DNA of 7,577 bases, from NCBI GenBank assembly GCA_003695725.1, contig RFHX01000114.1, forward strand, positions 1-7,577, in the 5' to 3' direction. The stretch's first letter is position 1, and each line of letters begins with the position of its first letter. This document shows positions 1 through 7,577 of the stretch, piece after piece. This stretch comes from J061 sp003695725 [NCBI: Candidatus Schekmanbacteria bacterium] (GTDB lineage Bacteria > Schekmanbacteria > GWA2-38-11). The notes beneath the pieces were generated by a model. It had not been told where the DNA came from, did not search any database, and saw only the letters and a list, made by a program, of their open reading frames with translations. A program made the translations under genes and the position numbers.

Positions 1-17
1 CATTATCAAATCAAGCA

Positions 18-40
18 TAATTGAACAGTTAATTCAATTA
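18..40 (-). repeat. Inverted repeat over the transporter stop codon
   Basis: A perfect 8-bp inverted repeat (TAATTGAA at 18-25, TTCAATTA at 33-40) with a 7-nt loop overlaps the stop codon of the transporter. The stem is almost all A/T and no T-tract follows on the minus strand, so it is at best a weak transcript-end hairpin and may be chance. Confidence 0.25.
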
Positions 41-1267
41 TTCCTCATTTCTGCTTTCATAATAATCAATAACACAAGCCCCTACCGCATCACCCCAGAC
101 ATTTACCGTTGTCCTGCATCTATCAAGAAGCCAGTCTATGGCAAGTATCATCCCTATACCTTCAACAGGCAAGCCTACTGATTGAAGTACGAGCACCATT
201 GTAACAAGTCCTGCCTCAGGAATCCCTGCCGCTCCGATTCCAGCTATTGTGGCAGTGAAAAATACAATCAGCAGTTTAGCACCGGCAAGTTCAATACCAT
301 AACTTTGGGCAATAAATATTGCAGCAACTGCTTCATACATTGCTGTGCCATCCATATTTATAGTAGCACCAAGCGGTAGGACAAATCCCGATGTTTTCTT
401 TGACACTCCTCCTTCCTCGGATACGCATTCCATAGTAATCGGCAATGTTGCAGATGATGATGCTGTTGCAAAAGCAGTGAGGAGTGCTTTGCCTACTGTG
501 AAAAAATAATTGATAGGATTTCTTTTCCCAAAAAAGAGGAGAATCATAGCTAAAATAATTACCGAATGAATTGTTAGAGCACTTACTACTGTTATAAAAT
601 ATTTGCCCAAGCTTCGTATGAGGTTTACAACTGCATTGCCTCCACCCGTAATGCCAAAGCGATATGCTATTAAAGCAAATATCCCAATTGGCGCAAAAAA
701 CATTATCCAGCGTACCAGTTTCATAACAGCATCATTTAGAGATGCAAAAAAAGAAATTGCTGTTTCCCCTTTTTCTCCTATTGCATTCAAAGCAAGCCCA
801 AAAAGTATTGATGCAATTATGATAGGCAGTATCTTCATCTCAGCCGCCGCTTGAAAGAGATTCGGATGTATAAGACTTTCAATCATATCAACAACTGAAT
901 ATGAAGTTTCGGTGGAAATTTTTTCAGGTATCTCTGCACCCGATAAGGGAAATCCCAATCCCGGTTTTATAGAAAGGACCATCATCATACCTATTGCAAC
1001 TGCAATTCCTGTGGTAGAAAGATAATATACCAGTGTCCTCAATCCAAGTTTACCCAATCTTTTAGTCCCTTGTAGATTCGTGATACCACTAATCATTGAT
1101 ACAACGATTATTGGAATTACCATCATCTTGAGGGCATTAAGGAAAAGGTCACCCAATATTTTCATCTTTATGCTGAAATCAGGAAAAAAAATTCCTGCCC
1201 CAGCCCCAATTATCGCCCCTGCAATGATTCCAAAAAGAAGAGCCTGTTTTTTAAAAAAATCGCTCAT
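38..1267 (-). CDS. Sodium/proton-coupled glutamate/aspartate or dicarboxylate symporter (DAACS family)
   Basis: Inner-membrane secondary transporter that imports acidic amino acids or C4-dicarboxylates with cations. The protein of about 409 residues has the normal family length and the eight-helix plus two re-entrant-hairpin pattern. Hallmarks seen: serine-rich hairpin 1 (SSSAT, residues 270-274), NMDGT in TM7 (304-308), hairpin 2 (AGIGAAGIPEAG, about 342-353), and TM8 AIDWLLDRCRTTVNVWGD (376-393). In TM8 the arginine that contacts the substrate side-chain carboxylate in GltPh and the EAATs is kept (R385), as are D382, T386 and N389, which argues for an acidic substrate rather than a neutral amino acid. 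The TM8 wording is close to the EAAT-type DWxLDRxRTxxNVxGD. The start chosen is the ATG at 1267; an in-frame TTG at 1273 would add two residues. No Shine-Dalgarno is visible. It lies 51 bp downstream of the small HTH gene on the same strand and is probably co-transcribed. Exact substrate is inference. Confidence 0.95.
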   Translation of the reverse strand: MSDFFKKQALLFGIIAGAIIGAGAGIFFPDFSIKMKILGDLFLNALKMMVIPIIVVSMISGITNLQGTKRLGKLGLRTLVYYLSTTGIAVAIGMMMVLSIKPGLGFPLSGAEIPEKISTETSYSVVDMIESLIHPNLFQAAAEMKILPIIIASILFGLALNAIGEKGETAISFFASLNDAVMKLVRWIMFFAPIGIFALIAYRFGITGGGNAVVNLIRSLGKYFITVVSALTIHSVIILAMILLFFGKRNPINYFFTVGKALLTAFATASSSATLPITMECVSEEGGVSKKTSGFVLPLGATINMDGTAMYEAVAAIFIAQSYGIELAGAKLLIVFFTATIAGIGAAGIPEAGLVTMVLVLQSVGLPVEGIGMILAIDWLLDRCRTTVNVWGDAVGACVIDYYESRNEE

Positions 1268-1318
1268 CAACAATTTAATTTATAGGGGAATAAGAAGCTG
1301 AATAGAGTAATTCATCAT

Positions 1319-1525
1319 TCAAGAGTTTGTCTCATCCAATCTCTTACGCAAATATTCTTTTACCTTCTCAAAATCTTTTTTTTTGAAAAAAAGCGTGCCT
1401 TCAATTTTGTGACCGTCAATTATATCTTCTTCAAAGATGAGGTTTCGAAGGGTATAAGAGGTCACTCCAAGAGATTTTGCCGCATCTTTCAAACTTATAA
1501 ATTCTTCAATTTTTATGTTATTCAA
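1319..1525 (-). CDS. Small helix-turn-helix (excisionase/MerR-like) DNA-binding protein
   Basis: A 68-residue protein made almost entirely of one winged-helix HTH of the excisionase/MerR type. The pattern ISLKDAAKSLGVTSYTLRNLI (residues 10-30) is the helix-turn-helix, followed by a wing-like segment ending in LFFKKKDFEKVKEYL, and no effector or catalytic domain. The start is TTG at 1525; AAGGAGG lies upstream at 1543-1537 on the minus strand with an 11-nt gap, and no ATG fits between. It precedes the transporter by 51 bp on the same strand and is divergent from the heme-containing diguanylate cyclase, so it could regulate either or itself. No phage or integrase gene is nearby, so an excisionase role is unlikely. 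The coding strand contains a run of nine A (opposite 1376-1384) that could cause slippage. The fold assignment is fairly firm; target and role are unknown. Confidence 0.8.
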   Translation of the reverse strand: MNNIKIEEFISLKDAAKSLGVTSYTLRNLIFEEDIIDGHKIEGTLFFKKKDFEKVKEYLRKRLDETNS

Positions 1526-1536
1526 TGTAGAATCTT

Positions 1537-1543
1537 CCTCCTT
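1537..1543 (-). promoter_or_regulatory. Strong ribosome binding site for the TTG-started HTH gene
   Basis: The minus strand reads AAGGAGG, a near-perfect Shine-Dalgarno sequence, 11 nt before the TTG at 1525. It is the only clear Shine-Dalgarno in the window and is what decides the non-ATG start of the small HTH gene. Confidence 0.7.
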
Positions 1544-1562
1544 AATTTGATAGATTGATTTT

Positions 1563-1568
1563 TATAAT
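1563..1568 (+). promoter_or_regulatory. Possible -10 box for the diguanylate cyclase gene
   Basis: A perfect TATAAT lies about 100 bp upstream of the cyclase start, overlapping the candidate minus-strand promoter of the HTH gene. No -35 is present at the right spacing (TTGATA at 1547-1552 is only 10 bp away), so the element would need an activator or is a chance match. If used, the leader would be about 90 nt. Confidence 0.25.
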
Positions 1569-1595
1569 ATATATTTTTCAATTCCATAAGGTCAA
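1566..1595 (-). promoter_or_regulatory. Candidate sigma70-type promoter for the HTH-transporter unit
   Basis: On the minus strand TTGACC (1595-1590) and TATATT (1571-1566) are separated by 18 bp and lie upstream of the Shine-Dalgarno of the small HTH gene. Each box matches consensus at five of six positions. In A+T-rich DNA the -10 match alone means little; the -35 makes it plausible. Confidence 0.45.
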
Positions 1596-1620
1596 GAGAA
1601 GATAAAATCCTGATGGAATT
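1580..1620 (+). repeat. Inverted repeat in the leader of the diguanylate cyclase gene
   Basis: AATTCCAT (1580-1587) and ATGGAATT (1613-1620) are perfect 8-bp inverted copies separated by 25 nt. A related copy, GATGGGAATT, follows at 1649-1658. The set lies between the divergent HTH and cyclase genes, where operator half-sites would be expected, or it could form a leader hairpin. Function is not known. Confidence 0.3.
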
Positions 1621-1666
1621 AGAAAGAAGACTGTTGGTGATATTAAGCGATGGGAATTGAAAATAG

Positions 1667-3439
1667 ATGAACGAGAGGGATAAAAATAGAATGCGCACTA
1701 AACTTTTAATTAGTATTTTTTTGATTTTAGGACTTTCACTTTCAATAACGATGTATCAGATTTCCTCCTTCCAAAAAAAAGAACTTTTATCCAATGCATA
1801 TAAAGAAGCAGAATCAATGGCGTCAACTCTTCGAACTGTCCTTGAGTATCAGATGATAAACAAGTCGCCAAATATCCTCCAAAGGACATTGGAAGAAACT
1901 GTAAAAAATAAGCAATTCTCAAAAATATGCATAATCGGAAAAAACGGTAAAATCAATTACTCCTCAGAAACCGAAGAAGTGGGTCGAACGGTTGAAATTA
2001 GTGATAAAAGATGTTCAGTTTGCCACGAAGGCAATAGCAATGTTAGGCCATCTACCCCTACGATTTTACTCAATGAAAATGACAAAAATCCTTTCCTGAG
2101 AACTATCAGCCCCATATGGAATAAAAAAGAATGCCTTGGTTGCCATTCAAGAAATAAAAAAATACTCGGCATTTTTCTTACTGAGAAACCCGTGGCACAA
2201 TCATTTTTCATAATTAAAACAATAGAAAAAAGGATTCTTCTTTCAGGTGTCATCTCCGGTATTTTTATTTTCATACTCATCTATTTTCTCATAGAAAACC
2301 TCCTAAATAAAAAAATCAAAAAACTTATCGAAGGGACAAAAGAAATAGGGAAAGGCAATTATTCCATAAATATCAAAATAAGGGGAAATGATGAATTAAA
2401 AGATCTTGCAGAATCCTTTAACTCGATGGCACAAAACATCAAAAAAAATATTGACGAAATCAGAAGTATATCAACACAGCTCAATATCCTTTATTCAATA
2501 GTCAATAGGTTGAGCAAAACAATAAACCTCAACGAATTAAAGGGGATAATCGTTGATCTTGTGTATGAAATACTCGATACATCATCTACCATATTAATTA
2601 CAAAAACAAACGATGAAAAACTCTTTGATGTCCTAATCAAAAGTGACAAGGCAAAAAAGCCCAAAAACCTTCAATACCATCTTGATAATGACAGTGTGCC
2701 TCAACCTGCCATTTTAACGGAAAGTCATTTTGACACATTAAACAAGCAGAAACCATCCGATTTATTCTTTTCAGAAAAAAAATATATTGCCTATATGCCA
2801 ATCGGAATGAGAGAAATGAAATTGGGAATGCTCATTGCCGCAAGAAATAACCGTATTTTTACCCCTGACGAAGAGGAGCTCATCAAAGCCATAAGAACGC
2901 ATGCATCTATTGCCTTCGAGAATGCTTACCTCTATTCAGTTGCAATTACAGATGAATTGACAGGGCTTTTTACATTGAGGCATTTCCACACGAGACTGGA
3001 GGAACAGATAGGTACATTTAATCGTTACGGCCAGAAATTTTCTCTTTTGATGCTCGATATAGATGACTTTAAAAATGTTAACGATACATATGGTCATCCT
3101 GCCGGTGATTCCGTCCTTATTCAAGCGGCAAAAATAATCAAACAGTCAATTCGTGATGTTGACCTTGCCTTTAGATACGGAGGCGAAGAATTTACAGTAA
3201 TTCTACCTGAAACAGGAAAGAATGCCGCCAAAGTTGTCGCAGAAAGAATCAGGCGAAACATCGCAGATGCAGAATTCGAGTTAGATGATTATCCTAGCAT
3301 TTCTGTAACTGTCAGCATTGGCGCCTCTGCCTGTCCCTCAGATGGCACAACTATGAAAGACATAGTTCTCGCTTCTGACAAAGCACTTTATAAAGCTAAA
3401 AATGAAGGGAAAAACAGAGTCGTTCTTTTTCAAAAGTAA
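1667..3439 (+). CDS. Membrane diguanylate cyclase with two periplasmic c-type heme motifs (HAMP-GAF-GGDEF)
   Basis: Predicted inner-membrane sensor that makes c-di-GMP from two GTP. Order by residue: TM1 about 12-30; an extracytoplasmic loop about 36-185 with two CxxCH motifs (CSVCH 116-120, CLGCH 156-160); TM2 about 190-210; HAMP about 208-262; a helical linker; GAF about 275-422; and GGDEF about 424-590. The active-site motif is GGEEF (505-509), with metal-site aspartates in LDIDDF (463-468). An intact RxxD inhibitory site (R496, D499) sits five residues before the motif, so both activity and product inhibition are expected. The loop wording, SPIWNKKECLGCH followed by ILGIF, resembles the di-heme loops known in sensor kinases and chemoreceptors of Geobacter-like bacteria, so redox or gas sensing is a reasonable inference. 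It is divergent from the small HTH gene and convergent with the HTH-receiver gene, 12 bp apart. The start at 1667 has a weak ribosome site; ATG 1691, eight codons in, has AGAGGGA (1674-1680) ten bases upstream and may be the true start. Confidence 0.95.
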   Translation: MNERDKNRMRTKLLISIFLILGLSLSITMYQISSFQKKELLSNAYKEAESMASTLRTVLEYQMINKSPNILQRTLEETVKNKQFSKICIIGKNGKINYSSETEEVGRTVEISDKRCSVCHEGNSNVRPSTPTILLNENDKNPFLRTISPIWNKKECLGCHSRNKKILGIFLTEKPVAQSFFIIKTIEKRILLSGVISGIFIFILIYFLIENLLNKKIKKLIEGTKEIGKGNYSINIKIRGNDELKDLAESFNSMAQNIKKNIDEIRSISTQLNILYSIVNRLSKTINLNELKGIIVDLVYEILDTSSTILITKTNDEKLFDVLIKSDKAKKPKNLQYHLDNDSVPQPAILTESHFDTLNKQKPSDLFFSEKKYIAYMPIGMREMKLGMLIAARNNRIFTPDEEELIKAIRTHASIAFENAYLYSVAITDELTGLFTLRHFHTRLEEQIGTFNRYGQKFSLLMLDIDDFKNVNDTYGHPAGDSVLIQAAKIIKQSIRDVDLAFRYGGEEFTVILPETGKNAAKVVAERIRRNIADAEFELDDYPSISVTVSIGASACPSDGTTMKDIVLASDKALYKAKNEGKNRVVLFQK

Positions 3440-3446
3440 AAATTCA

Positions 3447-3459
3447 GGAAATTATTTCC
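3447..3459 (-). terminator. Short palindrome between convergent genes, possible weak terminator
   Basis: GGAAATTATTTCC is a perfect 13-bp palindrome with a single central base, overlapping the stop codon of the HTH-receiver gene and next to the cyclase stop. On the minus strand it is followed by TGAATTTTT, a poor T-tract. The usable stem is only 4 to 5 bp, so any terminator activity is doubtful. Confidence 0.25.
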
Positions 3460-4024
3460 ACAATTGGGTTGGAGAAAGCAGGTCAATTAAAATGCGTCTT
3501 ATATCAATCATTTTGATTGGTTTTTCAAGAACTTCCACAGCTCCATATTCCTTTATCTTGTCAATATTATGTTTAGAGGGATAACCTGTAATCGCCACTA
3601 TCTTTATGCCGTTTGTTTCCGGTGATTCTTTCAACCTTTTACAAACCTGAAAACCGTCAATTCCTTTCATTACGAGGTCAAGAAAAACGATATGGGGTTT
3701 GAAAAGATGAACCAATTCTCCGGCTTCAAAGCCGCTATATGCACCCTGTACTTTAATGTTTGGATCTATTTTTTCAATCGACTCCTTAAAGAAATCCACG
3801 ATAAAACGCTCATCATCGATTACGAGAACACGCAAATTTTCATCGTCTTTATCTGAGTTGATTTCTTTCCAAAATCTAATGAGTTCTTCTTTCGGAATTC
3901 TTCTATGTCCGCCTGCAGTTTTGGTGGATTTCAAAAGTCCTGATTCTATCCATCTTATTATAGTTGCAGGAGATACATTGCAATATTCCGCTGCTTCGTG
4001 AGTTGTAAATGCTTTTTTCCCCAT
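3452..4024 (-). CDS. Response regulator with N-terminal MerR-type HTH and C-terminal receiver domain
   Basis: A 190-residue cytoplasmic protein in two parts. Residues about 5-52 are an excisionase/MerR-type winged HTH (TTHEAAEYCNVSPATIIRW, then the wing TAGGHRRIPKEEL). Residues about 64-187 are a CheY-like receiver with acidic pair D70/D71, phosphoacceptor D116 in VFLDLVMKGIDGF, T146 and K168 of the EKP motif, all intact, so it should accept phosphate from a histidine kinase. The order is the reverse of most response regulators, which carry the receiver first. No effector-binding domain of true MerR proteins is present. It is divergent from the giant GAF/PAS sensor across about 158 bp, which makes that protein the nearest candidate partner. 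The ATG at 4024 follows directly on the HTH and lacks a visible Shine-Dalgarno; a TAAAAT box 7 to 12 bases upstream on the same strand (4036-4031) could mean a leaderless transcript, but A+T bias makes that weak. Confidence 0.95.
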   Translation of the reverse strand: MGKKAFTTHEAAEYCNVSPATIIRWIESGLLKSTKTAGGHRRIPKEELIRFWKEINSDKDDENLRVLVIDDERFIVDFFKESIEKIDPNIKVQGAYSGFEAGELVHLFKPHIVFLDLVMKGIDGFQVCKRLKESPETNGIKIVAITGYPSKHNIDKIKEYGAVEVLEKPIKMIDIRRILIDLLSPTQLWK

Positions 4025-4182
4025 ACTTTTATTTTAAATACCTAATCATTTATTTGCTATTTTGAAAAGATGCCATTGTCAAGAAAAAAACTTTTTCAAC
4101 TAATAAAAATACTAATACATAAATGAAATGAATGAAATTATATATTGACAAAAAAGAAATTAAAACCTTTTATATTAGTGAT
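4025..4182. promoter_or_regulatory. Divergent control region between the HTH-receiver gene and the giant sensor
   Basis: This very A+T-rich 158-bp spacer should hold both promoters. A perfect TTGACA faces the sensor gene (4145-4150), and another faces the regulator gene on the minus strand (4082-4077) but without a good -10 behind it. ACTAATA occurs twice with 12-bp spacing (4099-4105, 4111-4117), and AATGAAAT occurs twice with 9-bp spacing (4122-4129, 4131-4138). These short repeats could be binding sites for the HTH-receiver protein; that is inference. Confidence 0.4.
4145..4176 (+). promoter_or_regulatory. Candidate promoter of the giant sensor with a long 20-bp spacer
   Basis: TTGACA (4145-4150) is perfect, and TATATT (4171-4176) is a five-of-six -10 at 20-bp spacing. 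Such long spacers are the mark of MerR-activated promoters. A short dyad, AAAAG (4152-4156) and CTTTT (4167-4171), sits nearly centred in the spacer. A poorer -10 at 18 bp (TTTATA, 4169-4174) is also possible. Transcription from TATATT would begin about at the ATG at 4183. Confidence 0.4.
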
Positions 4183-7100
4183 ATGTCTGTAAGGAATAAA
4201 AATAAAGATGAAACAATATCACAAAGAATTAACAAATATATCTCTTCTTTAGGCAATTGTAAGAACGAAAAAGAGCTTGCTATAAAAACTTCTTCCTATC
4301 TCTTGAATTTGACAAATTCACAGGCATGCTTAATTTTTAGCTCCACTGGAGAAAAAAACCTTTTCAAATCTAATGGAATCATATTAGGAAAGAGAAAAAT
4401 AAAATGCGACTGCATAATCGATGCAAATATAAAAAACGGGAAGGAATATCTCCTCAAAAATCTTGATTTAAGGAAAGAACTTATAAAAAGCAATTGTAAA
4501 GATATAAATCTCGTTTCAGGCCACAAATATTTTTCCACATTCTCAATTAAAGGCGCTAATAACGATATTTCTCTACTAATAGAATTATTGAAAAATGAAT
4601 CAGTTTTTAAAAATGACGAGCTTAAAATAAGCTCTTCTATTGTTGCCCATTCTCAAAGAATTCTCAGAAACATTGAACGCCATTCCTCATATGAAGAATA
4701 TGCTAAAAAATTAAAGATATTGAATGAGACAATTCATATCATTAATGACTCCCATAATCTCAATGAGCTGGCAGAAAAGATAGAGCCTGTAATGCGCAAA
4801 GCGATACCCTATGACTCAATTGTTTTTGCCACTTATGACGATTCTGAACGCTATATTGTTGACCTTTATATAATGTACCACGAGGGAGTAATCAAAAGAA
4901 ATAACCTTTATGCCCCTACATCGATTGGGAAAATGAAAAAAGAACTGAGAAAAAAGAAAACCATTAGAATTGACGACCTGTCTAAAAATCCTTTTGGACT
5001 TGCGCGGATAGCAACATTGGCAGAAGGAATGTCTTCCGAATTGATAGTTGGATGTATTTCAAAGGGAAAAATATTAGGAGTCTTCGTCCTCGTTAAAAAA
5101 GAAAAAAACTTCTATACTGACGAAGATGAGTGGTTTATGAGGATGATTGCCAAAGACATTACTTCTGCAATGGTGAGATTTAAGACAGATGAAATATTGA
5201 GAAAACAAAAAATCTATTCAGAAATTTCCAACAAAATAATTCAAAAAACCCTTAAATCCGAAAATGCTGAAAAAGCCGCTATCAACCTTTTTTCTGAAAT
5301 AGAAAAGAAACTTGATTTTGACACATTAAAAGTGGGACTTTTCAACAACGATTTATCAGAGATTACAATATACCTCAAACCCGGCAACAACAAAAAGCTC
5401 ATAGGTCCTCAGACTTTCAAATACGATGAAAAAAGGCACAAAAAGGTGATTGATCTTCTGCAGTCAAAGAGAAGATATATTTCTGCAGATTCTGAGATTG
5501 GGAAAAGTCTATTCAGTGAAAAGGTGGCGGCTGAAGAAAACCTGCAATCTGCAATAATATTCCCATTATCCCTTCCTAAACGATTGCTTGGCTTCATCGC
5601 ATTTCTCAGCAAAAAGAAAAATATCTTTGGTAAACACGACATAGAGGGAATTGCACTTATAGCAGAAAGTTTCTCACTTGCCCTTGAAAATTTGCTTCTA
5701 AAAAATGAAGCAGATATACAAAAAAAGAATTGGGAATCAACTTTCAATTCAATAAGTGATTATATTCTAATAATTGATAGAAATGGAAAAATTCTTCGCT
5801 TGAACAAAAAAAGCAAAAAATTATTAAAGAAGATTTCAGGCAATGATTATAATGAGTTATCAGCAAAAGATTTCCTGAATGCCTTGAAAATACCCTACGC
5901 CCAAAGTCTTAAAGAACTTGTTTTCAAGGAGAATCTTCCTGTCAACCAGACACTGCCGTCAATCAACAATGATAAATATTACAATATTCTAATCGACCCA
6001 ATCAGAAAGAAGCCGTCAAAGAAATGTCAAGAAGCTGTGTTGCAGGTTAAAGATATCACTGATATCAAGAAAACTGAAGCAGAATTGAAAAACATAAATC
6101 AGCAATATCGAAAGCAGAATACTAAATTCAAAGCATTAAGCAAAATTGCTGAAATAATCAACAGGGACAAAACTCCACAAGAAATTTTTGAAATGATAGG
6201 AAAAGAAGTAAAACGCATCATCCCTTTCGATAGCGGCAAAGTATGGGTTTTCAATAAAGAGTCTAAAGAATTAGATTCGATATATACATTGACAATATAT
6301 ACAGAAAAATTTTCGGCTTCAGAAGCAATGAAAACAGGACTTCAACAATCATCAGTAATGGAAATATTGAAAAGCGGCAAACCAATGATTAGAAATTTAA
6401 AAAAAGGGAATCCTTCATATCGAGAAGATAGATTTATAAAAGAAGCCAATATCAATTCAGTGCTTTACATACCTTTGGAGGCAAAAGAGAAAATAACAGG
6501 ATGTATCTCTCTCGGTTCCAGAAGATATAATGCTTTTACGACCGAAGATATCAGCTTTATGAAACAAATAGCTGGCTATATTTCTTCATACCTTGAGAAC
6601 CTAAAACTGCTTTCCGAACTTATGCAGGCAAACATAGAATGGGAAAAAACATTCAATTCTACAAGCGATTACATTTTTCTCACTGACAGCAAGAACAACA
6701 TAATAAAATGCAATAAATCATTTCAAGAAGATTACCTCAGAGAAGAAACATTTTTAGAAAAAAAATGCTACGAAATTTTCTGCAAAAAAAATAATGACAA
6801 AAATGGATGCATTCATAGAAAGCACACTCCTGACACTTTTCCTAACATTTTCGAATTTACAGACCAGGAAAAAGGCAGAACATTTGTAGTATCCATTTCG
6901 CCCATAGGAATTTTCTCGGACAAGAAAGAATGCTATGTCCATATAGTCACAGATATTACGAAGATGAAGGAAGCAGAAAAAACAATCTTAAATCTTGCGA
7001 CACAATTAAATACAGTCTTTGAAAATTCTCCTGATGGTATGATTTTAATGGATAAAGAGCAAAAGATTGTAAAATTCAGCAAGTCTGCACAAAAAATTTT

Positions 7101-7577
7101 AGGTGTTGATTTGAGTAAAGAAAATTGGAATACAAGACAAAAGTTTCTTCAGGAAAAGGTTTTGAGTGTTAGAAGAAGTGACAATACTCCAATACCCTTC
7201 AACGAATTACCTATCACAACAGCTTACCGTACAGGGAAAGAAATTAAAAACCAAGAAATTATTTTTGAATACAAAGATGGAAAAAAGCAGTATCTTTTAA
7301 TTCATATTCTTCCTTTAAAGAACTCAAAAGGTGAAGTTGAAAATATAGTTTCAATTTTCAAGGATATAACTCAACAAAAGGAATATGAAGAAACTCTGCG
7401 TAAACAAAGCGATGAACTAAACAATATCTTCACAAGTTTTCAAGATGCGCTCATTCTCGTAAATGACAAAGGTAAAATCCTGAAAATGAATTCAGCTTCG
7501 GAAAAGCTGCCATCTTTTCTTCCGGCTCGCCCATTGCCGATCGTGGCCAGCAGCTTTCCGCTTGCATCGCACACGAC
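4183..7577 (+). CDS. Giant cytoplasmic multi-GAF/multi-PAS sensor protein, 3' end beyond the window
   Basis: One open frame of 1131 codons without a stop, running off the right edge. No membrane segment is seen. Domains by residue: GAF-like about 25-165 with a CDC motif (75-77); GAF about 178-330; GAF about 346-506; PAS about 516-626; GAF about 648-806; PAS about 817-927 with C862, C867, C876 and H878; PAS about 938-1064 (LNTVFENSPDGMILMD); and the first part of another PAS about 1081-1109 (FQDALILVNDKGKILKMN). The output domain is missing; by family precedent it would usually be a histidine kinase, less often GGDEF. Residues after about 1109 come from the foreign-looking tail and should not be counted as this protein. 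Start: ATG 4183 was chosen because a TTGACA promoter lies just upstream, but an in-frame ATG at 4132 would add 17 residues; neither has a Shine-Dalgarno. The protein is divergent from the HTH-receiver regulator and is its likeliest local partner. Confidence 0.9.
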   Translation, partial: MSVRNKNKDETISQRINKYISSLGNCKNEKELAIKTSSYLLNLTNSQACLIFSSTGEKNLFKSNGIILGKRKIKCDCIIDANIKNGKEYLLKNLDLRKELIKSNCKDINLVSGHKYFSTFSIKGANNDISLLIELLKNESVFKNDELKISSSIVAHSQRILRNIERHSSYEEYAKKLKILNETIHIINDSHNLNELAEKIEPVMRKAIPYDSIVFATYDDSERYIVDLYIMYHEGVIKRNNLYAPTSIGKMKKELRKKKTIRIDDLSKNPFGLARIATLAEGMSSELIVGCISKGKILGVFVLVKKEKNFYTDEDEWFMRMIAKDITSAMVRFKTDEILRKQKIYSEISNKIIQKTLKSENAEKAAINLFSEIEKKLDFDTLKVGLFNNDLSEITIYLKPGNNKKLIGPQTFKYDEKRHKKVIDLLQSKRRYISADSEIGKSLFSEKVAAEENLQSAIIFPLSLPKRLLGFIAFLSKKKNIFGKHDIEGIALIAESFSLALENLLLKNEADIQKKNWESTFNSISDYILIIDRNGKILRLNKKSKKLLKKISGNDYNELSAKDFLNALKIPYAQSLKELVFKENLPVNQTLPSINNDKYYNILIDPIRKKPSKKCQEAVLQVKDITDIKKTEAELKNINQQYRKQNTKFKALSKIAEIINRDKTPQEIFEMIGKEVKRIIPFDSGKVWVFNKESKELDSIYTLTIYTEKFSASEAMKTGLQQSSVMEILKSGKPMIRNLKKGNPSYREDRFIKEANINSVLYIPLEAKEKITGCISLGSRRYNAFTTEDISFMKQIAGYISSYLENLKLLSELMQANIEWEKTFNSTSDYIFLTDSKNNIIKCNKSFQEDYLREETFLEKKCYEIFCKKNNDKNGCIHRKHTPDTFPNIFEFTDQEKGRTFVVSISPIGIFSDKKECYVHIVTDITKMKEAEKTILNLATQLNTVFENSPDGMILMDKEQKIVKFSKSAQKILGVDLSKENWNTRQKFLQEKVLSVRRSDNTPIPFNELPITTAYRTGKEIKNQEIIFEYKDGKKQYLLIHILPLKNSKGEVENIVSIFKDITQQKEYEETLRKQSDELNNIFTSFQDALILVNDKGKILKMNSASEKLPSFLPARPLPIVASSFPLASHT
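7488..7577 (-). CDS. Fragment of an NHL-repeat protein in a probably chimeric contig end
   Basis: Read on the minus strand from the window edge, this stretch gives VVCDASGKLL, A, T, then IGNGRAGRKDGSFSEAEF. That is the inter-blade pattern of NHL-repeat beta-propellers of the NHLRC2 type (IGxGxxGxKDGxFxEAxF, normally followed by NxPQG). After AEF the match stops, the frame enters the antisense of the PAS coding sequence and meets TGA at 7442-7440. The 70 bases from 7508 are about 60% G+C by hand count, far above the rest of the window, with G/C-rich codons such as CTG, GCC, ATC and GGC. Both ends of the NHL protein are absent. The most likely reading is sequence from another genome or another locus joined to the sensor gene. 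Confidence 0.6.

Follow-up and report, generated by a model that had tools for sequence, protein, structure and literature searches.

Gaps, local assembly errors and chimeras in draft genomes give rise to incorrect protein-coding sequences, as described in the portion of PMC7111523 considered here. PMC1855051 counted 475 junctions in chimeras formed during multiple displacement amplification and found 406 of them to be inverted; 2-21 shared bases accompanied more than 70% of primings, and 337 of the 406 inverted chimeras joined segments lying less than 10 kb apart. Chimeric reads arising via microhomology at end repair have been reported for fixed-tissue samples, in the part of PMC8674242 that bears on this question.

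The window that we analyzed spans contig C114 from end to end (7577 bp); the draft genome to which this contig belongs comprises 374 contigs and 2.77 Mb and has a completeness rating of 97.84%. We conclude, with a probability of about 95%, that bases 7510-7577 form an artefactual tail from another gene that was joined to a hybrid sensor kinase gene through an ordinary sequencing or assembly artefact; since the window is the entire contig, this tail sits at a contig end. As with chimeric ends and local assembly errors in metagenome-assembled genomes, the contig carries sequence that is foreign to the true locus. The account in PMC7111523, so far as considered here, finds such errors from reads, whereas the present one is known from sequence comparison, and it does not describe the form encountered in C114, where the end of a contig is joined head to head to a foreign gene. 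The join shares with the amplification chimeras of PMC1855051 the fusion of opposite strands at a short shared stretch. It differs from them in that most of the pairs counted there lie within 10 kb, whereas the partner is absent here and the shared stretch perhaps reaches 22 bases. The 30 residues encoded on the minus strand match the NHL repeat of NHLRC2, of SUPPRESSOR OF QUENCHING 1 (SOQ1) and of bacterial thioredoxin-NHL proteins, but only these 30 residues are present and they seemingly belong to a donor rather than to this genome. When contigs C114 and C41 of this genome are combined, the sensor has the same domain order and neighbors as a hybrid GAF/PAS kinase (1583 aa) of the relative G001, except that the gene here is split over two contigs.

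The 5′ part of the hybrid sensor kinase gene (residues 1-1126) occupies positions 4132-7509 of the plus strand and encodes GAF and PAS domains, with Pfam GAF_2 detected in three stretches and PAS_9 in two. The open reading frame starting at 4132 runs without a stop to the final base of the contig. The last PAS domain of the window (7393-7509, plus strand) is represented by its start only and is cut by the junction. TIGR00229 matches residues 5-39 of this 39-residue stretch (20.4 bits, E 4.4e-4), narrowly missing its cut-off of 22.9, and PF00989 matches residues 8-39 with 14.9 bits, below its cut-off of 22.6. With the tail appended, PF00989 still matches residues 8-39, and its score drops from 14.9 to 14.2 bits. 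A similar pattern is found in other PAS domains of the same sensor protein, for example GKILRLNKKSKKL; the relative G003 (28%) served only as a source of open reading frames for the PAS comparison. Because the PAS matches reach 7509 and gain no extension from the tail, the plus-strand sensor reading holds up to 7509, with no hint that it continues past this base.

Position 7509 corresponds to residue 1126 when counted from the ATG at 4132. The earlier note had warned that any C-terminus or domain call past residue 1109 would be wrong; this caution is justified, with bases 7510-7577 lying outside the sensor, and its residue number agrees with a count from the ATG at 4183. With the frame open at the contig end and no PAS extension beyond the junction, automated gene calling would extend the sensor by 22 spurious C-terminal residues (1127-1148, positions 7510-7575, plus strand), and these final predicted residues should be removed.

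Read on the minus strand, positions 7577-7488 translate to VVCDASGKLLATIGNGRAGRKDGSFSEAEF, a 30-residue NHL-repeat fragment of the thioredoxin-NHL (NHLRC2/SOQ1-like) type identified by homologue alignments and a profile search. All 30 residues align without gaps to each of eight homologues, and the alignments end at 7488 even though seven extra query residues were supplied. Past this position all eight homologues continue with (N/D/R)xPQG, where the window has IFRIL. Since the homologue alignments stop at 7488, the minus-strand NHL reading is good down to that base and not beyond. A profile built from the eight homologues, with the tail left out, was searched against 6951 six-frame segments from C114 and 35 other contigs of the genome, and it ranked the tail best with an E value of 1.1e-12 (runner-up 0.12). 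Restricting the profile to the 23 columns outside the stretch shared with the sensor kept the tail on top, with an E value of 1.9e-7 (runner-up 0.33).

The 30 tail residues by themselves have no Pfam or NCBIfam match, which is no surprise for a piece of this size, and a Pfam NHL (PF01436) search of the whole genome did not include the tail in its 16 matches. A structure database searched with E values up to 10 returned seven sequences, four of them SOQ1, two NHLRC2 and one another NHL protein, with a best E value of 0.024. The nearest relatives of the tail that we found are NHL repeats within open frames of 682-745 residues in other bacterial genomes, which lie outside the family and order of the window; the homologue L041, the only one scanned, carries thioredoxin and NHL domains. 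The NHL repeat signature of the tail is in register with the thioredoxin-NHL family; any thioredoxin domain preceding the propeller would fall past the end of the contig. Bases 7510-7577 (68 bases) are not part of the sensor gene and belong to another gene, most likely that of another organism.

The tail also differs in composition from the remainder of the contig, with a G+C content of 60.3% in 7510-7577 versus 34.2% in 1-7487, and upstream of 7510 the G+C content of any 68-base stretch in the window is at most 55.9%. Seventeen of the 30 tail codons end in G or C, versus 31% in the sensor. We compared the tail with 18,529 overlapping 68-base stretches from 35 loci of the host genome (34 unmasked survey contigs and C41), of which 31 were equally G+C-rich and 87 equally unlikely under an order-3 host model. 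In view of these comparable host stretches, composition alone is no proof and serves as supporting evidence only. A survey of contig ends covered 42 contigs (40 surveyed contigs, C41 and C114); with six contigs consisting entirely of N left out and the far end of C7 omitted, 71 ends of 36 contigs were scored. The 3′ end of C114 shows the largest G+C step among these 71 ends and ranks third lowest by likelihood, behind two ordinary genes. Four other suspicious ends (L075 5′, L085 5′, L084 3′ and L078 3′) were inspected in six frames, each having an open frame that runs to the edge; the remaining ends, including both of L076, were scored only.

Two observations from this survey are recorded here in their own right. 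Six of the 40 surveyed contigs (L056, L071, L081, L088, L093 and L094), each 2.6-2.9 kb long, read as N throughout. The 5′ end of contig C101 (L075 1-870) has a G+C content of 66% at its edge and more G+C-rich stretches near 700-870; the edge lies in an open frame resembling type I restriction HsdR by the look of its sequence, and this end is possibly acquired DNA.

With the PAS reading good to 7509 and the NHL reading good to 7488, the 22 bases of positions 7488-7509 fit both genes in opposite strands and contain the junction. As few as about five per million 7-mers match the NHL profile as well as the shared residues SFSEAEF, a frequency that flatters the match because the homologues had been found using the whole 30 residues. 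The protein fits on the two strands permit at most 22 shared bases, the parents' own DNA lying outside this comparison. A GAATTC site (7488-7493) lies where the shared stretch begins on the left; the window has four such sites in all (3272, 3895, 4658 and 7488). Our data agree with the description in the earlier note of a normal PAS domain up to about 7509, a rise in G+C to about 60% past the junction, an NHLRC2-like NHL fragment on the minus strand and a stretch, 7488-7509, that fits both proteins.

No donor of the tail was found in genome_contigs, plasmids, viral_contigs, this genome or the other genomes searched. The last 198 bases and the 30-residue tail match only C114 itself within this genome, and the three nearest relatives (G001-G003) yielded no tail match at E values up to 0.01. 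A degenerate DNA pattern for GNGxAGRKDGxF occurs in none of the stretches of genome_contigs, a longer degenerate DNA pattern occurs in none of viral_contigs, and tblastn of the tail against plasmids returned only three records, the best with an E value of 4. When the 30 residues were searched against 290 genomes at E values up to 0.01, six genomes matched, one of which is this genome; as about three matches are expected by chance, this tally is weak on its own. All five foreign hits are aligned over the 30 residues, lie in open frames of 685-745 residues and show the xxPQG continuation. In the class of one of these hits, four of 13 genomes match at E values up to 0.001 (the hit genome included), and in its phylum two of 39 genomes match at E values up to 1e-5, both being among the four of the class. 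The best identity of the foreign hits in other bacterial genomes is 53%.

The genome's own NHL proteins were also considered as donors and rejected, as none of them matches the tail. The full thioredoxin-NHL relative L041 has two part-length matches in this genome, the best with an E value of 3.0e-23 and covering its NHL part, and no single match spanning both domains was found in this genome and 10 relatives. Since the donor was not found, the foreign origin of the tail rests on homology, composition and absence. The appended piece is absent elsewhere in the genome, has homologues in other lineages and has a G+C content of 60%, which together set its origin apart from that of the sensor gene.

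The true 3′ part of the sensor most likely lies on contig C41 of the same genome (L036; C41:1-1323), as suggested by synteny with the single relative G001 rather than by sequence overlap or reads. This nearest relative, which belongs to the same family and a different genus, possesses an intact orthologue of 1583 residues ending in HisKA, HATPase and receiver domains, to which the sensor is 35% identical over 966 columns. The C-terminal part of the G001 protein has 45 matches in the genome studied here, as expected in a kinase-rich genome. The best of them (C41:10-1281, E 6e-89, 40%) is located at a contig edge and corresponds to residues 1154-1581 of the G001 orthologue. A paralogue on contig C68 is nearly equal by similarity (41%, E 5e-79), and C41 is preferred over it because of its gene surroundings.

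Contig C41 starts inside a kinase gene, with HisKA and HATPase_c above their cut-offs and Response_reg at 25.3 bits, under its cut-off of 30.2. The kinase C-terminus (plus strand) is followed by a 151-aa gene (minus), a glycosyltransferase (minus) and a membrane protein (plus), which are respectively 40%, 65%, 62% and 56% identical to their G001 counterparts. On the other side, the neighbor of the sensor on C114 (3452-4024, minus strand), a divergent gene encoding a MerR-type HTH and a receiver (Pfam HTH_17, MerR and Response_reg in a scan of 3455-4024), serves as a synteny anchor, and it is 57% identical to the divergent neighbor of the G001 orthologue. The neighbors in G001 have the same relative orientations, with one additional gene, glgC-like judging from its sequence, inserted between the 151-aa gene and the glycosyltransferase and absent from C41. 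The HisKA, HATPase and receiver domains of a hybrid sensor histidine kinase are absent from the window and present on C41, where the gene most likely continues.

In pairwise alignments with G001, the C114 sensor ends at residue 1105 and C41 starts at residue 1150, which places approximately 44 missing residues (~132 bases) between the two contigs. An end-free pairwise alignment equates sensor residue 1126 with G001 residue 1105. Conservation is weak over the final 18 residues up to 7509: the BLAST alignment with G001 stops at residue 1108, and in a three-way MAFFT alignment the terminal four residues fall on a SEKL further along. A search for sensor relatives in 60 genomes, this one included, at E values up to 1e-30 and with a limit of 12 scored candidates for each genome, recovered G001 and G003 besides the sensor itself, and a protein search for sensor relatives in genome_contigs found none.

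The consequence of the join concerns data quality only: the sensor prediction has 22 false residues and lacks the kinase half, and would therefore be mis-called as a kinase-less sensor. The chimeric tail is not a biological feature, and C114 and C41 together describe a hybrid sensor kinase of ordinary type with an HTH-receiver gene next to it. The earlier note had proposed an assembly or amplification chimera, which is supported by the placement of the 3′ part on C41 through G001 gene order and by the presence of the tail nowhere else in the genome.

As for how the chimera arose, the sensor was very probably fused head to head, via up to 22 shared bases (7488-7509), with a thioredoxin-NHL gene that most likely comes from another organism. 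De Bruijn-graph assemblers usually begin with words of about 20-21 bases. Where coverage of the sensor breaks, such an assembler could have entered the graph of the other gene through a shared word and would then have halted 68 bases after crossing into the NHL gene. We infer that the artefact was probably an assembler join of this kind, at a short shared word, and in our judgement the assembler is favored by the long shared stretch, the partner outside the genome and the position at a contig end. A comparison of the ends of the 36 contigs revealed neither overlaps of 15-200 bases nor 18-mers common to their terminal 150 bases. None of the other ends examined has an assembler-type overlap, so the tail is linked to no specific assembler.

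A less probable though tenable origin, covered by the overall probability given above for an artefact, is a chimeric molecule that arose while the DNA was amplified or its ends were repaired: a 3′ end would have annealed to other DNA via the shared bases, and one or a few reads of this kind would have extended the contig end. The union of opposite strands at a short shared stretch is typical of such chimeras. However, the partner is not in this genome, unlike the pairs in the PMC1855051 counts, which mostly lie less than 10 kb apart: no partner was found within 10 kb in the same genome, and the Pfam NHL search lists none on C41. The up to 22 shared bases are moreover at or beyond the top of the range given in that part of the literature, and chimeric reads that are rare would, as a rule, have too little coverage to be retained.

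The tail might instead be native to the organism, coming from a locus that was left unassembled and was mistakenly joined to the sensor, which would be an artefact too. The genome is a draft of 374 contigs and has other NHL proteins, but the G+C content of the tail, its codon endings and the lack of an L041 match across both domains in this genome or the 10 relatives make this improbable.

Ligation of EcoRI fragments at the GAATTC site, raised in the earlier note as an alternative, is very improbable: the site is real and begins precisely where the shared stretch does on its left side, but the three other GAATTC sites of the window remain uncut, and the residues ASEKL to the right of the site would have to fit the PAS motif by chance. 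On a PAS profile made from six hand-picked aligned pieces, with others left out, 0.7% of 5-mers (2809/398,360) score as well as ASEKL, which makes the fit only moderate evidence against ligation. To our knowledge, EcoRI plays no part in the preparation of shotgun libraries.

A true cellular rearrangement, joining the sensor to an NHL gene and truncating it, is just as improbable as ligation and was already ranked low in the earlier note. The deposited contig reads this way, which lends no positive support, whereas what is left of the sensor gene seems to be open on C41, next to conserved neighbors, the G001 orthologue is intact and, despite a completeness rating of 97.84%, the genome has no second copy of the tail. 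Least probable of all is recombination in part of the population, in which the kinase half would have been swapped for a head-to-head junction with a recently acquired thioredoxin-NHL gene while C41 represented the unrearranged majority.

Two features of the sensor's surroundings deserve mention. The MerR-type HTH-receiver gene (3452-4024, minus strand) is divergent to the hybrid kinase (4132-7509 plus L036 1-1323) and the pair is kept in G001; the two genes may form a two-component pair. A diguanylate cyclase gene (1667-3439, plus strand) encodes HAMP, weak GAF and GGDEF domains (Pfam) and has two CxxCH motifs (CSVCH and CLGCH) in its N-terminal part, from which the protein may be a haem-binding sensor.
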